From: Tetramitus jugosus
Lineage: Eukaryota; Heterolobosea; Eutetramitea; Acrasida; Vahlkampfiidae
Assembly: GCA_937625935.1 (NCBI GenBank)
Contig: OW569350.1
Span: forward strand, 496,001 to 560,000
Length of the DNA: 64,000 bases
Direction: 5' to 3'
In this document: positions 43,642-49,012 of the stretch, one piece after another
How the letters are laid out: every line of letters starts with the position of its first letter
Numbering within the stretch: the first letter of the stretch is position 1
Position numbers and translations under genes: made by a program
The notes under the pieces: model-generated
Databases searched by the model: none
Told to the model about the DNA's origin: nothing
The model's input: only the letters and a program-made list of their open reading frames with translations

Positions 43642-46600
43642 TCAATCCATGCGGAAGTCCTCATGAAGGTTCAACTTCTTTGTTCGATGTTTTTTGTTTC
43701 GAACTCTCCTTCCTGATTGGTTGTTGTATGACTGCTTGCCTAGTTTGTTCTGACTCATCAGTAGCTTGACAGTTGCCTTATCAGAGGAGGTGTGATACAT
43801 TTTGCCCAAACAGAACTGTTGTAAATTCTTCTTTGCTACTTCAAGAGGTGTGTATCCCTTGCGATTCTTCTTGTGCAGATCTGCCTTCATTTTAAGGAGC
43901 CACTTCACTTCTCTCTTTGAACCTTTTTGACAAGCAATGTGCAGTGGGGTGTCTCCGTTGTCGTTGATGGGCCTGTTCACATCCATCAGCTTCTTCTGCA
44001 CAATATAATTGACCAATTGTTTATCTCTGCGAATCATGAATATTCTAAGACCAGTGTTTGAGAAACGCTTATCAGGAATGTGAAGTTTCATTCCTAAATC
44101 AACATATTGCTGCAAGTCCTCTTCTAGTACAACCTTCGACGAACAAAACAAGTGCATGCATGTTCGTCCATTGGCATCCTTTTGATTTAAGTCACCACCC
44201 AACTCTATCAACATCTGGGCCTTTTCAAATGATGAATTGTTCCAAAAAGCAATGTGAAGTGCAGTTACACCAAGAGGACCTGGTGAATAGTTAATCAGTC
44301 CCTTGATGAATTGATCAATATCATTCTTCATATGCAATTGAGACATTGTTTCTCTGATGAAAGCAAATATTGCGTCAACCGAATCTTCCTGGCCATAATA
44401 GACTGCTGTCATCAGAGGCGTGAAGTTTGCCTTTGTGGTTTCAGACAAGTACATGATCTTTTTGAGTTGTTCAAACTTATCAGAACCACTTGTTGCCTGA
44501 CGCATGACTTGAAATAAGTTCGTATTCCGCCTAGCACATTCGTGCATTATTGTTGTTCCATGTTTGTAGTGTTGGGTAATGATAGAGTGCAAGTTTTCAG
44601 AATCTTTCTCATAGCTCAACAATGACAAGGAGCTCAGGGAAGCAGTGAAGTGTCTGCGTGGATTTCTAGATCTTGAGTTGTAAATATGTGCAACATATGC
44701 TCTTGAGTTTGAGTGCAATGCAACATGGATAGGGGTATATCCGTGATGGTCAAAATGACTCAGACTGGCACCAGAACTCAGTAAGGATGACAAGCCATAA
44801 CTACGTGCTGCATAGTGAGCAGGAGTCTGGTTCATTTTGTCAACAACATCCAACCTTGCTCCTGCTCCTAAAAGGAGATTGGCTATGTGATTTGAGGGTT
44901 TGAGATAGGCAATGTGAATTGGGTATAATCCAGCTCTGGTTGGTGTGTTCACATCAATCAAATCTTTTTGGCCGAGAATGTACTCAACAATCGCGTCTCT
45001 TTTACACCAGATAGCAACATGCAACGGATTCCATCCCTTATATGTTTGATTATTGTGCAATCGCGCCCCATATTTTTCTACTAACAATTTGAATGTGTTC
45101 AAATCACCCCAATCAGCAATCTTATGCAAAAGTGACACTCCTCCCTTCATTTTCAAATTTACGTCCTGACCCTTCTCAAGCATTGAGTGCAACAATTTTT
45201 CATAACTAGGTGCCATAGCATGGTAATACTTACAAAGTCCTCGAGTGAAGACATATGACACGGGCATCATGTCATTAAAATTTAACACGTTCAATGGGGC
45301 TCCATGGTCCATGAGTAGTTTAGCAGTTTCAAAACAGCCATTTTTGGCTGCAATATGCAATGGAGTGTCATTATTTCTGTCTTGCCTGTGCATTAGTTGT
45401 GGCTCTTTTGCAATGATCTTCTTCATTATTTCAACACTAGACAGACATCCACGCCTTGCAAGATAATGTAAGGCGTTGCACGAGGATCTTGGATCGATGC
45501 AATCTATATTGATTTTCTTGTGAGCGAGTAATAGGTTCAATATCGCAACGTTCAACTTGATGCATGCCAACAAAAAAGGCGGAGGGGATTTAGATGATTC
45601 ATGTTTGTTGACATCAACCCCTGCAGTTAATAGGTGCTCCACAATACGAACATCATTACTTCTAATTGCATAGTAAAGAGTACTCTTTTTGGCAACAGAG
45701 AGAACATTGATCTTCTCCTTCATGTGCTGGTGGTCCAGTAATTTGCAAAGAGATCCAACTTTACCTCGTCTGCAAGCCATATGGATAAGAGAGCTCGTTA
45801 ATTTTACCACATTGTTCGCAAGGAGGAAATCTATCATTTTCAACTTGTCATGCAAGACACAAAACTCAATCGGAGTCATGCTTTGTTGCACATAATTAAA
45901 TCTGTGATAATAGAGAAGGTATCGCTCCCTCCTTTTGATAGTATCCCTAAATATGTGTGGTGCTAGTTGGAGTAACTCAGTGGCTAGAGGAATATCTTCG
46001 TCTGATAAGCAATTGAGCAAAAGACTATTAAGGGCATCTGGATTGCCTGCAAGGTGAAAATTTTGAATCGATTTCGAGAGATTTTCCCGGTTCTTTTGCA
46101 AGAACAGCTTGAAATACGCAATAATTTTGGAATATCGGCTCCCAATTGCAATGTCGATCGGTCTGAACTTGTGTTGATCGCGTTGATTCAGGATGTCAGA
46201 ATCCAAGTTTCCGTACGCTTTGATGCTACCTAACCTACGTTTTAGAATTGCGTTTAACACAATTTGTACCATCCTGGCATTCTTGCTTCTAATGGCCTGG
46301 TGAAGTATATTCTGGTTCTGGACTGTGACAATGGAAAAATCAGTTCGACAATCATCCAACAATAGCTTGACAATTTCCTTGTGTTTTTCTGCGAGTGCAA
46401 CGTTTAACGCTGTCCAGTTGTTAACATCACAGGCATTTACATCCAATGCGGAATGGCTTAACAATAAACGGACAACATCCAACTGGTTGTGCTTTGCTGC
46501 AATATGCAGGGCTGTGGCGTGAGTTGTTGTTGTTCGATGAATGATTCCTGATGATTCGGCCAATAGAACTGATACAACCTTTGCATGTCCAAATTTGCAT

Positions 46601-47472
46601 GCCAAGTGAAGGGCAGAATAGGAATGAAATGTCTCCTCGACCATATCAAAACATAGTTTTTTAGCTCTTGATAACGCTGATGATGGACGCGATGCTTGCT
46701 GGACAGTAGACCATGTTTCTCCTTGTTTATCCTCTTCTTTTAACGAGGCATTCGTTGAATCATTATCCAGAAGAATCATTTGAGCGCGACTCATTTTCGA
46801 CGATGTAATCTGTTGCTCGATACGCTTCATTGATAATTCGAATTGGTCCAACAGACTCTCTTCCATCTCATAAACCTTTTTTGCATGATCAATCAAAGCC
46901 TTCACAACACTCCAATGACCGTTCTGAGCTGCTACTAACAATGGACTCATCCTTCTCTCTGCCAAATCATCAACCAACAACTTTGTGCGATTCACATGAT
47001 CGACTACTCGATCAAATGCATCAGCAAACGACTTGTTATCATTCCTATACTTTTTGTTGAGCACCGTTAAACGAAAATGATTGTTCTTAATCTGTTTGAA
47101 CCGATCTCTGGGATTATAGCCTTGATAGAACACGGCTCCACAATCCAACAAGAACTGAACAATGCTCAATCGACCTAGAGCAGCTGCTCTATACAGCAGT
47201 GAGTGACCTTTTCTTGACTTTGCATTGACACTGATAAGCTTCTGAGTGGCACCGTTTTTTTCCGTCGATTCTTGTTCATTCATGTCATCGTCATCGATGT
47301 CCAAGCTTTCACTCTCATGGATGTCAATCTCTTGGGTATCAGCATCGCCACGACTACTCTCATCAGAAACTGAAAGGGAAATGGAAAAGAGCGATTGAGG
47401 CACTAGTAGAAACTGTTTGAACAGTGGAAGATTGTTGGCTTCAATGGCAGAAACTGCATCACTAAAGGTCAT
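43642..47472 (-). CDS. large ankyrin-repeat protein
   Basis: The predicted protein has 1276 aa from ATG 47472 (MTFSDAVSAIEANNL). The frame is open upstream to 47682 but that part overlaps tRNA-Ala and cannot be protein. Nearly the whole chain is ankyrin repeats, over twenty by eye. Clear ones include GHSLLYRAAALGRLSIVQFLLDCGA, TALHIAAKHNQLDVVRLLLSH, DTPLHIAAKNGCFETAKLLMDHGA and DTPLHIACQKGSKREVKWLLKM. A Glu/Asp-rich loop sits at ~60-80 and the C-terminus is basic (GRRVRNKKHRTKK). There is no kinase, death or transmembrane domain. Ankyrin arrays mediate protein binding; the partner is unknown. Confidence 0.88.
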   Translation of the reverse strand: MTFSDAVSAIEANNLPLFKQFLLVPQSLFSISLSVSDESSRGDADTQEIDIHESESLDIDDDDMNEQESTEKNGATQKLISVNAKSRKGHSLLYRAAALGRLSIVQFLLDCGAVFYQGYNPRDRFKQIKNNHFRLTVLNKKYRNDNKSFADAFDRVVDHVNRTKLLVDDLAERRMSPLLVAAQNGHWSVVKALIDHAKKVYEMEESLLDQFELSMKRIEQQITSSKMSRAQMILLDNDSTNASLKEEDKQGETWSTVQQASRPSSALSRAKKLCFDMVEETFHSYSALHLACKFGHAKVVSVLLAESSGIIHRTTTTHATALHIAAKHNQLDVVRLLLSHSALDVNACDVNNWTALNVALAEKHKEIVKLLLDDCRTDFSIVTVQNQNILHQAIRSKNARMVQIVLNAILKRRLGSIKAYGNLDSDILNQRDQHKFRPIDIAIGSRYSKIIAYFKLFLQKNRENLSKSIQNFHLAGNPDALNSLLLNCLSDEDIPLATELLQLAPHIFRDTIKRRERYLLYYHRFNYVQQSMTPIEFCVLHDKLKMIDFLLANNVVKLTSSLIHMACRRGKVGSLCKLLDHQHMKEKINVLSVAKKSTLYYAIRSNDVRIVEHLLTAGVDVNKHESSKSPPPFLLACIKLNVAILNLLLAHKKINIDCIDPRSSCNALHYLARRGCLSSVEIMKKIIAKEPQLMHRQDRNNDTPLHIAAKNGCFETAKLLMDHGAPLNVLNFNDMMPVSYVFTRGLCKYYHAMAPSYEKLLHSMLEKGQDVNLKMKGGVSLLHKIADWGDLNTFKLLVEKYGARLHNNQTYKGWNPLHVAIWCKRDAIVEYILGQKDLIDVNTPTRAGLYPIHIAYLKPSNHIANLLLGAGARLDVVDKMNQTPAHYAARSYGLSSLLSSGASLSHFDHHGYTPIHVALHSNSRAYVAHIYNSRSRNPRRHFTASLSSLSLLSYEKDSENLHSIITQHYKHGTTIMHECARRNTNLFQVMRQATSGSDKFEQLKKIMYLSETTKANFTPLMTAVYYGQEDSVDAIFAFIRETMSQLHMKNDIDQFIKGLINYSPGPLGVTALHIAFWNNSSFEKAQMLIELGGDLNQKDANGRTCMHLFCSSKVVLEEDLQQYVDLGMKLHIPDKRFSNTGLRIFMIRRDKQLVNYIVQKKLMDVNRPINDNGDTPLHIACQKGSKREVKWLLKMKADLHKKNRKGYTPLEVAKKNLQQFCLGKMYHTSSDKATVKLLMSQNKLGKQSYNNQSGRRVRNKKHRTKKLNLHEDFRMD

Positions 47473-47606
47473 GGGCGGTACGTAGCTCGTGATGTTTTTC
47501 TTCTTTCCAGAAACTTGGATATCACGACAACGAACTTCCTTCAAGAGAGTTTGTGAAAGTTCCACTTGTGAAACTTCAAAACCGCACAAATGCAAAACAA
47601 CAAAAG

Positions 47607-47679
47607 TGGAGCCACAGGGAATCGAACCCTGGACCTCATGCATGCAAAGCACGCGCTCTACCAACTGAGCCATGACCCC
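47607..47679 (-). tRNA. tRNA-Ala (anticodon UGC)
   Basis: This is a 73-nt intronless cloverleaf on the minus strand. The acceptor arms are GGGGTCA/TGGCTCC (one G-T and one T-G pair), the D arm contains GGCTCAGTTGGTAGAGC, and the anticodon stem CGTGC/GCATG encloses loop TTTGCAT with anticodon TGC. The T arm is CAGGG TTCGATT CCCTG. The discriminator is A and CCA is not encoded. A TTTT terminator starts one base after the discriminator. A and B boxes are intact. A retroelement is inserted 43 bp upstream of its 5' end. Confidence 0.96.
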
Positions 47680-47708
47680 CATGTCACTCTATTCTATTTT
47701 TAGATATT

Positions 47709-47722
47709 TGAGCGAGAACAGT
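47709..47722 (+). repeat. target-site duplication, left copy (14 bp)
   Basis: TGAGCGAGAACAGT occurs here and again, exactly, at 48999-49012, immediately after an A-run. The two copies bracket the 1.28-kb retroelement. A perfect 14-bp match in this arrangement is the mark of target-primed integration. Confidence 0.9.
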
Positions 47723-47734
47723 AAACGGAATCAC

Positions 47735-48866
47735 ATGTCTGGTGATTTGGTGAAGGAATACTGCAACAGCCGTTATGCAGTGTGGACCACTGCACGGAAA
47801 GTCTCTAGGCCAAGTGACAGAGAGGTGGTCATTACTGGCAACGGTAATGGTGTCTCTCAGTCATCTTTGGCAAGAAAGATAGGAGAGGAGTTTGGTGACT
47901 GGCTCAACCGAGTCCAGGTCATCAAGAGGAAAGGCCAGCAACGCTTTGTTGCATGGGTGACCGCATCTATGAGTTTGTTGAGCTATTCAACAAACAGAGG
48001 AGGATTGGCAACAGCACTGCTGCACCCAAGCGCAGTGTTGATTGCACACGAAAAGTGGTCGTCCATGGCATGAAGACCATGTCAGTGGACGACATCAAGA
48101 AGCTACTGGGACCTGAGAAGGTTGCCAGTGTGCTCAAGAAGCGTGACACTGCTTTCGTGGTCATCACCCACGAGCAGTGCTCAGCGGAGAGAACAAGATA
48201 AAGGCCACGGTCACTCGATACGTCGAGAGACCACATGATCCTCTCAAGGCTGTCAACAAGAGGTTGAAGAAGATGTACGAGGAGCTGCTGACGGTGGTTG
48301 ACGGACTGCGTCGACAGGTCACAGAACTCACCAAGGAATTGGGAAAGACTAAGGGTCAAGGGGGCAACAAACCGGTTCCAATGCCGGAGCAAGAAGTTGC
48401 CCAAGCCACTGCTAGGATGGAGACTACTCCTGAGTTAGTGGAGGCAGAAGAACAGAGGACTGTCGCAACACCACTGTCATCAGTGCCTGTTGTACAGCTC
48501 AGTGCTGAGAACCGGCAAATTCTGGAGCAAGTGAATGCCACTTCTCCAGTGTTCGCCAGAGTGAAAAAGGAAATTGCTGCATTGGCGCTGGCTGCTGCAC
48601 GCAAAAGGTATGGTTTGACTGAGGACGAACCAGTCATTGTGGATGTGGATGATGACTCCGAAAAGGAGATTCAGAGTCCACAACTCAATGAAAACAAGAA
48701 GAGGAGTGCTAGGATCACACTGGGTGATCTGATGAGCAACAAGGCCCAAAACAAGAAAAAAACAACAGATGGCTCTGTGTCCATCGACGGTCCTACTACA
48801 AGGTTACACCCTTTGATGAAGGGCATCAACCAAACCACTCAACAGAGTGATTCTTCCAACCTGTAG
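47735..48866 (+). pseudogene. retroelement ORF1-like gene with two frameshifts
   Basis: The coding region starts at ATG 47735, 12 nt inside the element (MSGDLVKEYCNSRY), and ends at the TAG at 48866. It is readable in three consecutive frames. Frame A covers about 47735-47955. Frame B continues to about 48180 with VVVHGMKTMSVDDIKKLL and TAFVVITHEQ, a spacing that resembles an RRM fold. Frame C covers the rest, with a coiled-coil stretch (LKKMYEELLTVVDGLRRQV) and a disordered charged tail. Each step is -1 (or +2), so two small indels probably destroyed the gene; programmed frameshifting is less likely. RRM-like plus coiled coil resembles ORF1 proteins of non-LTR elements, but I cannot assign a family. 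Confidence 0.65.
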
Positions 48867-48952
48867 GTGCACCGTCGGGGACAACAAGAGAAGAAGAGTG
48901 AATGACGCCCTACGGGGTAACACTCACAAAACAAGTCAATAAATGAGCAATC

Positions 48953-48975
48953 GTGTGCTTGCGCAGCAAGCACAC
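48953..48975 (+). other. 3'-terminal hairpin of the retroelement
   Basis: GTGTGCTTG and CAAGCACAC form a perfect 9-bp stem around the loop CGCAG, ending 12 nt before the A tail. Stem-loops near the 3' end are the recognition site for reverse transcriptase in several LINE families. That role here is inference. Confidence 0.6.
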
Positions 48976-48998
48976 ATGGTTGTATGGAAAAAAAAAAA

Positions 48999-49012
48999 TG
49001 AGCGAGAACAGT
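48999..49012 (+). repeat. target-site duplication, right copy (14 bp)
   Basis: This is an exact copy of 47709-47722, directly after the A tail. It marks the right-hand junction of the insertion. Confidence 0.9.

Follow-up and report, generated by a model that had tools for sequence, protein, structure and literature searches.

An ORF1-only non-LTR retrotransposon family located upstream of tRNA and 5S rRNA genes

The retroelement family described here, family A, is very probably a non-LTR retrotransposon that encodes ORF1 only, is non-autonomous and uses target-primed reverse transcription to insert immediately upstream of Pol III genes. We base this reading on the position and orientation specificity of the copies, their target duplications, A tails and stacking, a constrained ORF1 and the presence of APE-RT relatives in the same genome. 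One copy lies in the window, the 64-kb stretch of DNA analysed here, which has a GC content of 41.6%.

The window copy and the family it belongs to

The window copy (L001) occupies 47723..48998 on the plus strand and is recognised as a broken member of family A by its multi-copy DNA matches. The targeted Pol III gene is a tRNA-Ala(UGC) gene on the minus strand (47606..47679), called by ARAGORN and supported by an Rfam RF00005 match of 67 bits in the same stretch. A sequence-only reading had described a 1276-bp insert with an A11 tail between exact 14-bp repeats, separated from the mature 5' end of tRNA-Ala by 43 bp (47680-47722), and both statements are correct. The duplication, TGAGCGAGAACAGT, is exact at both ends, with its gene-proximal copy at 47709..47722 and its distal copy at 48999..49012 (both plus strand). 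The inferred first nick corresponds to the left edge of 47709..47722 and lies 29 bp from nucleotide 1 of the tRNA. Inside the element, all on the plus strand, remains of ORF1 extend over 47735..48866 with no single open frame, the longest piece with an ATG, GTG or TTG start being 48177-48866. They are followed by an AATAAA that resembles a polyadenylation signal (48938..48943), a 3'-terminal hairpin closed by GCAATC/GGTTGT (48947..48983) with ATGG and the A tail directly after it, and the A11 tail itself (48988..48998). The earlier description needs one correction: the window copy is slightly 5'-truncated, since it lacks AAAACGCAGAAAA, the first ~14 bp of most other A copies. The mechanically called ORF of an ankyrin-repeat-like gene (window 43642-47682) crosses the tRNA-Ala gene; the true start of this gene is probably downstream of the tRNA.

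The arrangement in the window is beyond chance, as the element recurs at least 40 times in the same arrangement. A DNA search with 47723-48998 against the host assembly (26.35 Mb, 56 contigs) returned 53 matches, interpreted as 40 copies and a number of smaller pieces; since scoring covered only 40 of 150 first-look candidates, the copy number is at least 40. Selection of the copies relied on sequence similarity and took no account of location. Each of the 40 was inspected, 30 of them (L001-L030) with 1500-bp flanks and 10 (L065-L074) in shorter stretches, and target genes were called by ARAGORN and Rfam on the copy-bearing stretches. In all, 29 of the 40 copies are immediate upstream neighbours of a Pol III gene, at distances of 19-102 bp. 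Their targets are tRNA genes of many isotypes in 23 cases, 5S rRNA genes in four (L011, L017, L023, L070) and tRNA-like genes in two (L029, L069). The extremes of the distance range, 19 bp in L002 and about 100 bp in L071 and L030, belong to copies that are rearranged or have no readable duplication. Another ten copies (L007, L014, L018, L022, L026, L027, L066, L067, L072, L074) lie behind another element, in stacks that lead to a tRNA gene; for L026, L067 and L074 the interval between copy and gene was read in part, and ORF1 or RT matches fall in the rest of it. For the remaining copy, L028, which is 5'-truncated, the sequence read contains no Pol III gene, although it takes in 1500 bp on the 5' side. 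Orientation is uniform: each of the 39 assigned copies points its 5' end toward the 5' end of the gene. The 85-bp zones upstream of 1593 tRNA and 772 5S first-look candidates would cover less than 1% of the assembly even if all candidates were genes, and hence 29 of 40 copies by chance is vanishingly unlikely (about 1e-50 or less). The proposal that the element targets tRNA genes, made from a single copy, thus survives the census of copies and locations: 39 of the 40 adjoin a Pol III gene or belong to a stack behind one, all in the same orientation and with a sharp distance, and the target range extends to 5S rRNA genes.

Some features of the target genes deserve mention in their own right. 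The two tRNA-like targets (L029:2846-2910 and L069:1328-1391) no longer have their original 5' acceptor part, the first ~8 nt being replaced, but retain everything else, the B-box part included; they were perhaps damaged by earlier insertions, or are perhaps minimal Pol III targets. The 5S rRNA genes occur singly or in pairs on many contigs, and no single array was seen among 47 scored of the 772 candidates. Contigs C54 and C56 carry tRNA genes at identical coordinates (941, 12773, 14364, 14438, 44585) and look like near-duplicates, perhaps of an organelle genome.

The same neighbourhood was found beside other elements. For 49 further ORF1-only matches with complete or near-complete N-termini, pre-set windows of 241 bp were placed where a gene was expected. 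A tRNA or 5S gene on the expected strand was found in 32 of them, three of these genes (L107, L118, L123) being already in the tRNA census, and the A-tailed 3' end of another element in 15. One window (L131) held the end of an ORF2 and one (L137) neither gene nor element end within its 241 bp; at least two eligible matches (C44:262135, and C12:4510 within a stack) were left out of this set. Six windows of 321-361 bp beside autonomous-type ORF1 matches gave a gene in four cases and an A-tailed 3' end in two.

ORF1 and the autonomous relatives

An intact ORF1 of 382-388 aa is present in 23 of 30 A copies, and its dN/dS is 0.30. On this point the earlier interpretation has to be amended: family A is ORF1-only and non-autonomous and not an RT-encoding LINE. 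The 5' leader is about 25 nt, and the distance between ORF1 start and Pol III gene is 60-79 bp for 19 of 20 copies measured, the start of L008 having been missed by the search pattern. Pfam gave no domain above its cut-off on ORF1. Structure prediction points to two RRM-like domains followed by a coiled coil, with a mean pLDDT of 53 for the full ORF1p model and 79.5 for a 180-aa N-terminal model. An eIF4E-like fold headed the first, low-confidence Foldseek list but is now less likely, as the better N-terminal model favours tandem RRMs and has eIF4E at rank 46. Rejected was an origin as a processed pseudogene of a host gene, given that ORF1 relatives lie within RT-bearing elements and that the family has at least 40 copies. 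Transcription of the element itself by Pol III was considered in view of the five A copies scanned, which contain no T4 run versus ~1.4 expected (not significant), but was set aside, as B contains one and five ORF2 regions 5-12.

Full-length relatives that encode an APE/RT ORF2 are indeed present in the assembly, as separate elements with a related ORF1. The RVT_1 profile has 73 matches. The best described relative is a ~5.2-kb element (L007/L049/L061) with a broken ORF1 related to that of A and an open ORF2 with APE and RT; its ORF1 starts about 67 bp from a tRNA-Glu gene, and the two-ORF autonomous form can be read from L061 ORF1 and L049 ORF2. In L054 the ORF2 matches RVT_1 with an E-value of 2.4e-25 and Exo_endo_phos_2 with 25.9 bits, just under the cut-off of 27.4, and an L1 endonuclease in the PDB with an E-value of 8e-4. 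A C-terminal CCHC-like motif (zinc finger) was identified in ORF2 by eye only. The RT region scores somewhat better against R2 RTs in the PDB (56-80 bits by entry) than against human L1 ORF2p (49 bits), and a homologue search gave 18 proteins, few of them named, with no close labelled LINE among them. The autonomous elements share the genomic position of family A: at 19 of 30 RT loci a tRNA or 5S gene lies where expected, on the right side and strand (L032, L033, L036, L037, L039-L041, L043, L044, L048-L050, L052-L054, L056-L059; L053 via the L013 stack). No gene was found at the predicted place in five of 14 windows beside RT elements (L031, L047, L051, L055, L060), and the other six loci (L034, L035, L038, L042, L045, L046) are unprobed at the predicted place or lie in stacks. 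A second autonomous group (L040/L149 and L036/L150), with a very distant ORF1 N-terminus (branch 2.06), is likewise found at tRNA genes.

Family A and the autonomous elements also have similar ends. The 5' start AAAACGCAGAAAA is common to A and the L061 autonomous element, and the starts of B and of the other autonomous elements read are A-rich variants. At the 3' end, A, B and those autonomous elements whose ends were seen have a hairpin with CAAC/GTTG, or a near match, as its closing stem, followed by TAT (TGT only in L026) and A(n), with T, A or GG before the A(n); an equivalent hairpin is formed in folds of three other A copies, one B element and three autonomous ends. Judged from its sequence, family A is an ORF1-only satellite of APE-type non-LTR retrotransposons, HAL1-like in kind, which would be mobilised in trans by ORF2p.

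The conservation of ORF1 might be borrowed. Family A could be a recent internal-deletion derivative, and the low dN/dS would then reflect selection on a full-length parent. This is the main rival to a cis-acting ORF1p. TRE5-A.2 is described as such a derivative of TRE5-A.1 (PMC5391098), the ends of A do resemble those of autonomous elements, and ORF1s were read for a minority of the 73 RT matches. We nevertheless consider it unlikely. The DNA search with A found only A copies or pieces and diverged (65-79%) B-like stretches, and the autonomous ORF1 N-termini compared are distant from A, with 33-44% identity at seven loci (three of them short pieces) and a long separate branch in the ORF1 tree for the eighth, L150. 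In this tree A, B, P0004 and P0005 fall on one side, with support of only 47/90. Furthermore, changes common to several A copies have an N:S of 46:55, against a neutral expectation of 2.4-3.2.

Precision of insertion

Nick distances were taken for A copies with a duplication of at least 11 bp, using the gene-proximal duplication edge as the nick. Six copies with no usable duplication (L002, L065, L068, L069, L071, L073) were left out; several of these directly placed copies are rearranged, as is L030. At tRNA genes the nick lies on average 28.5 bp upstream of nucleotide 1 (SD 1.65 bp, n=19, including L029 with an extrapolated gene start), with values of 25-30 and a single 33. The latter is L030 with an exact duplication match and becomes 29 by eye if one mismatch is allowed. 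At 5S genes the nick is 21-24 bp upstream (mean 22.4, SD 1.1, n=5, the fifth value read by eye from L096 and L145). There is no overlap between the two sets (exact Mann-Whitney p=4.7e-5). In one related B element next to a 5S gene, the nick edge, read by eye, is at 32 bp; this is beyond the range of A, and the 5S figure is therefore valid for A only. Measured from the gene to the insertion, the distance is 40-46 bp in 18 of 19 tRNA copies with duplications of at least 11 bp, L020 standing at 52 bp with an ambiguous A run, and 37-40 bp in four 5S copies.

Precursors of tRNAs carry a short leader, those of 5S rRNA do not. The shift of ~6 bp between tRNA and 5S targets is as expected if the distance is measured from the Pol III start, because only the tRNA precursors have a leader. 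This suggests that the ruler is the Pol III start and not the mature gene end or the B box. Over 1319 bp there is no difference between L011, which lies at a 5S gene, and L012, which lies at a tRNA-Leu gene, while their flanks and duplications differ, and thus one element lineage uses both gene classes.

A sequence-specific endonuclease, whose DNA motif happens to occur upstream of the target genes as in R1/Dewa-like elements, might also produce a fixed position. There is a weak base preference at the nick, of at most 0.57 bit per position over 21 sites (0.57 at -1, 0.44 at -4, 0.40 at +3). The target duplications of 11-22 bp, however, have no strong motif in common, and both they and the 20 bp before the nick differ from site to site. 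That 5S genes serve as targets just as tRNA genes of many isotypes do also argues against motif recognition, and we regard this explanation as very improbable. Marginally less credible still is random insertion followed by selection, in which only copies in the harmless space upstream of tRNA genes would have survived. The window is gene-dense, its 64 kb containing 18 ORFs that start with ATG and reach at least 450 aa, and insertions elsewhere would often be harmful, but survival does not explain the small SD of the nick position, the single orientation of all 39 copies or the shift between tRNA and 5S genes. Moreover, L011 and L012, which are identical and hence very recent, each lie at a Pol III gene. 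Duplication of a whole segment with tRNA gene and element, for which nothing speaks beyond the repeated adjacency, is practically dismissed, and is refuted for copies with distinct target duplications: isotypes and flanks differ, and each readable copy is surrounded by a private duplication.

Proposed mechanism and comparison with known elements

Insertion of family A by target-primed reverse transcription could proceed as follows. The element RNA would be bound in cis by its own ORF1p through the predicted RRM-like domains and coiled coil, and ORF2p from an autonomous relative would be recruited via the common 3' hairpin and A tail. The complex might be docked by the Pol III initiation complex (TFIIIB) and not by DNA sequence. 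The endonuclease would then cut the first strand at a constant distance from the Pol III start and the second 11-22 bp further out, leaving the element 5' end facing the gene. Each new arrival would push older copies away from the gene and so build the stacks. Binding of TFIIIB by ORF1p of family A is assumed by analogy with TRE5-A, whose ORF1p is reported to bind TFIIIB (PMC5911963, PMC5391098). The retention of an intact ORF1 in elements that lack ORF2 suggests a cis-acting ORF1p and an ORF2p that acts in trans. A wider reading, which we offer tentatively and think rather doubtful as a whole, would see in A, B and their relatives an old and diversified ORF1-only lineage that is the successful LINE form in this genome. 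ORF1p would act in cis, carry the Pol III docking and be the unit under selection, ORF2p would be hired from any autonomous relative that recognises the common 3' hairpin, and, in view of the short leader, the neighbouring Pol III gene may also supply the promoter. If so, targeting would be needed for expression and not for safety alone.

The behaviour of family A is a close match to that of Dictyostelium TRE5: distance and orientation agree, 5S genes are used as well, and tandems and ORF2-less forms occur in both. The TRE5-like geometry proposed for the window copy is borne out for the family. TRE5 elements are described upstream of tRNA genes at a distance of 40-54 bp and of 5S genes at 37-41 bp, with the 5' end toward the gene, an A tail, element tandems and ORF2-less forms mobilised in trans (PMC5391098, PMC5911963, PMC5633606). 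Family A inserts within the same tRNA range and with the same orientation, and the two-ORF organisation of TRE5, with APE, RT and zinc finger in ORF2, is present here in the relatives and absent from A. There are distinct differences. The module-bearing 5' untranslated region of TRE5-A (A- and B-modules) is lacking in A, the window has a GC content of 41.6%, chromosomal 5S genes on many contigs are used here, and ORF1p is predicted as RRM-RRM-coiled coil. No close full-length parent has so far been found for A, which is part of a diversified lineage of ORF1-only elements. TRE5 RTs are assigned to the L1 clade (PMC5911963); we do not claim TRE5 membership for A because of the better RT match to R2 than to L1 in the PDB and the short leader. 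An origin independent of TRE5 is plausible.

Other non-LTR elements upstream of tRNA genes are NLTR-B of Polysphondylium pallidum (39-64 bp) and NLTR-A of D. purpureum (2-6 bp) (PMC5911963 Table 1); they have an RNase H domain, whereas the one ORF2 scanned here gave only RVT_1 and a sub-threshold endonuclease in Pfam. HAL1 (half-L1) of mammals is non-autonomous, encodes ORF1p only and is L1-derived (PMC5753468). Family A is similar in its coding capacity and in having ends like those of an autonomous element, but differs in its targeting, which the passages on HAL1 in that source do not mention. Ty3, DGLT-A and Tj1 are LTR elements whose insertions also lie upstream of Pol III genes, at 1-33 bp from the gene or from the start site (PMC5911963). 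The zebrafish non-LTR elements Mutsu and Dewa are found at 5S rRNA genes and the tRNA-Leu spacer and are listed as direct recognisers of target DNA (PMC3706591), in contrast to the position-determined use of many tRNA and 5S genes here.

Among the papers listed, titles and opening lines of abstracts contain no report of Pol III-targeted LINEs in Naegleria or Heterolobosea, and two Naegleria genome papers, as far as their consulted sections go, give LINE content only (PMC6125883, PMC6831594). What looks new is the occurrence in a different host and an apparently long-lived ORF1-only lineage. As to the host, an HslU protein encoded in the window has a best match of 75%, with no close named relative among the 120 matches listed. 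The genome carries a radiation of non-LTR elements with TRE5-like distance, orientation and 5S extension; should the host not be a dictyostelid, LINEs have used the Pol III initiation complex as a landing site in at least one more lineage. The conserved ORF1s without ORF2 allow one to ask whether ORF1p alone carries the targeting.

Two further kinds of RT match were seen in the assembly. Weak and mutually similar RVT_1 matches (profile 106-164) at C9:603492, C3:2089, C10:606104, C17:2337 and C48:379851 lie ~2-9 kb from contig ends, which suggests a subtelomeric retroelement family. A second kind covers only profile ~59-205 in open frames of a few hundred aa (C16:366236, C28:223019, C15:386571, C30:32495, C40:276712, C35:278212 and others) and is possibly another retroelement class.
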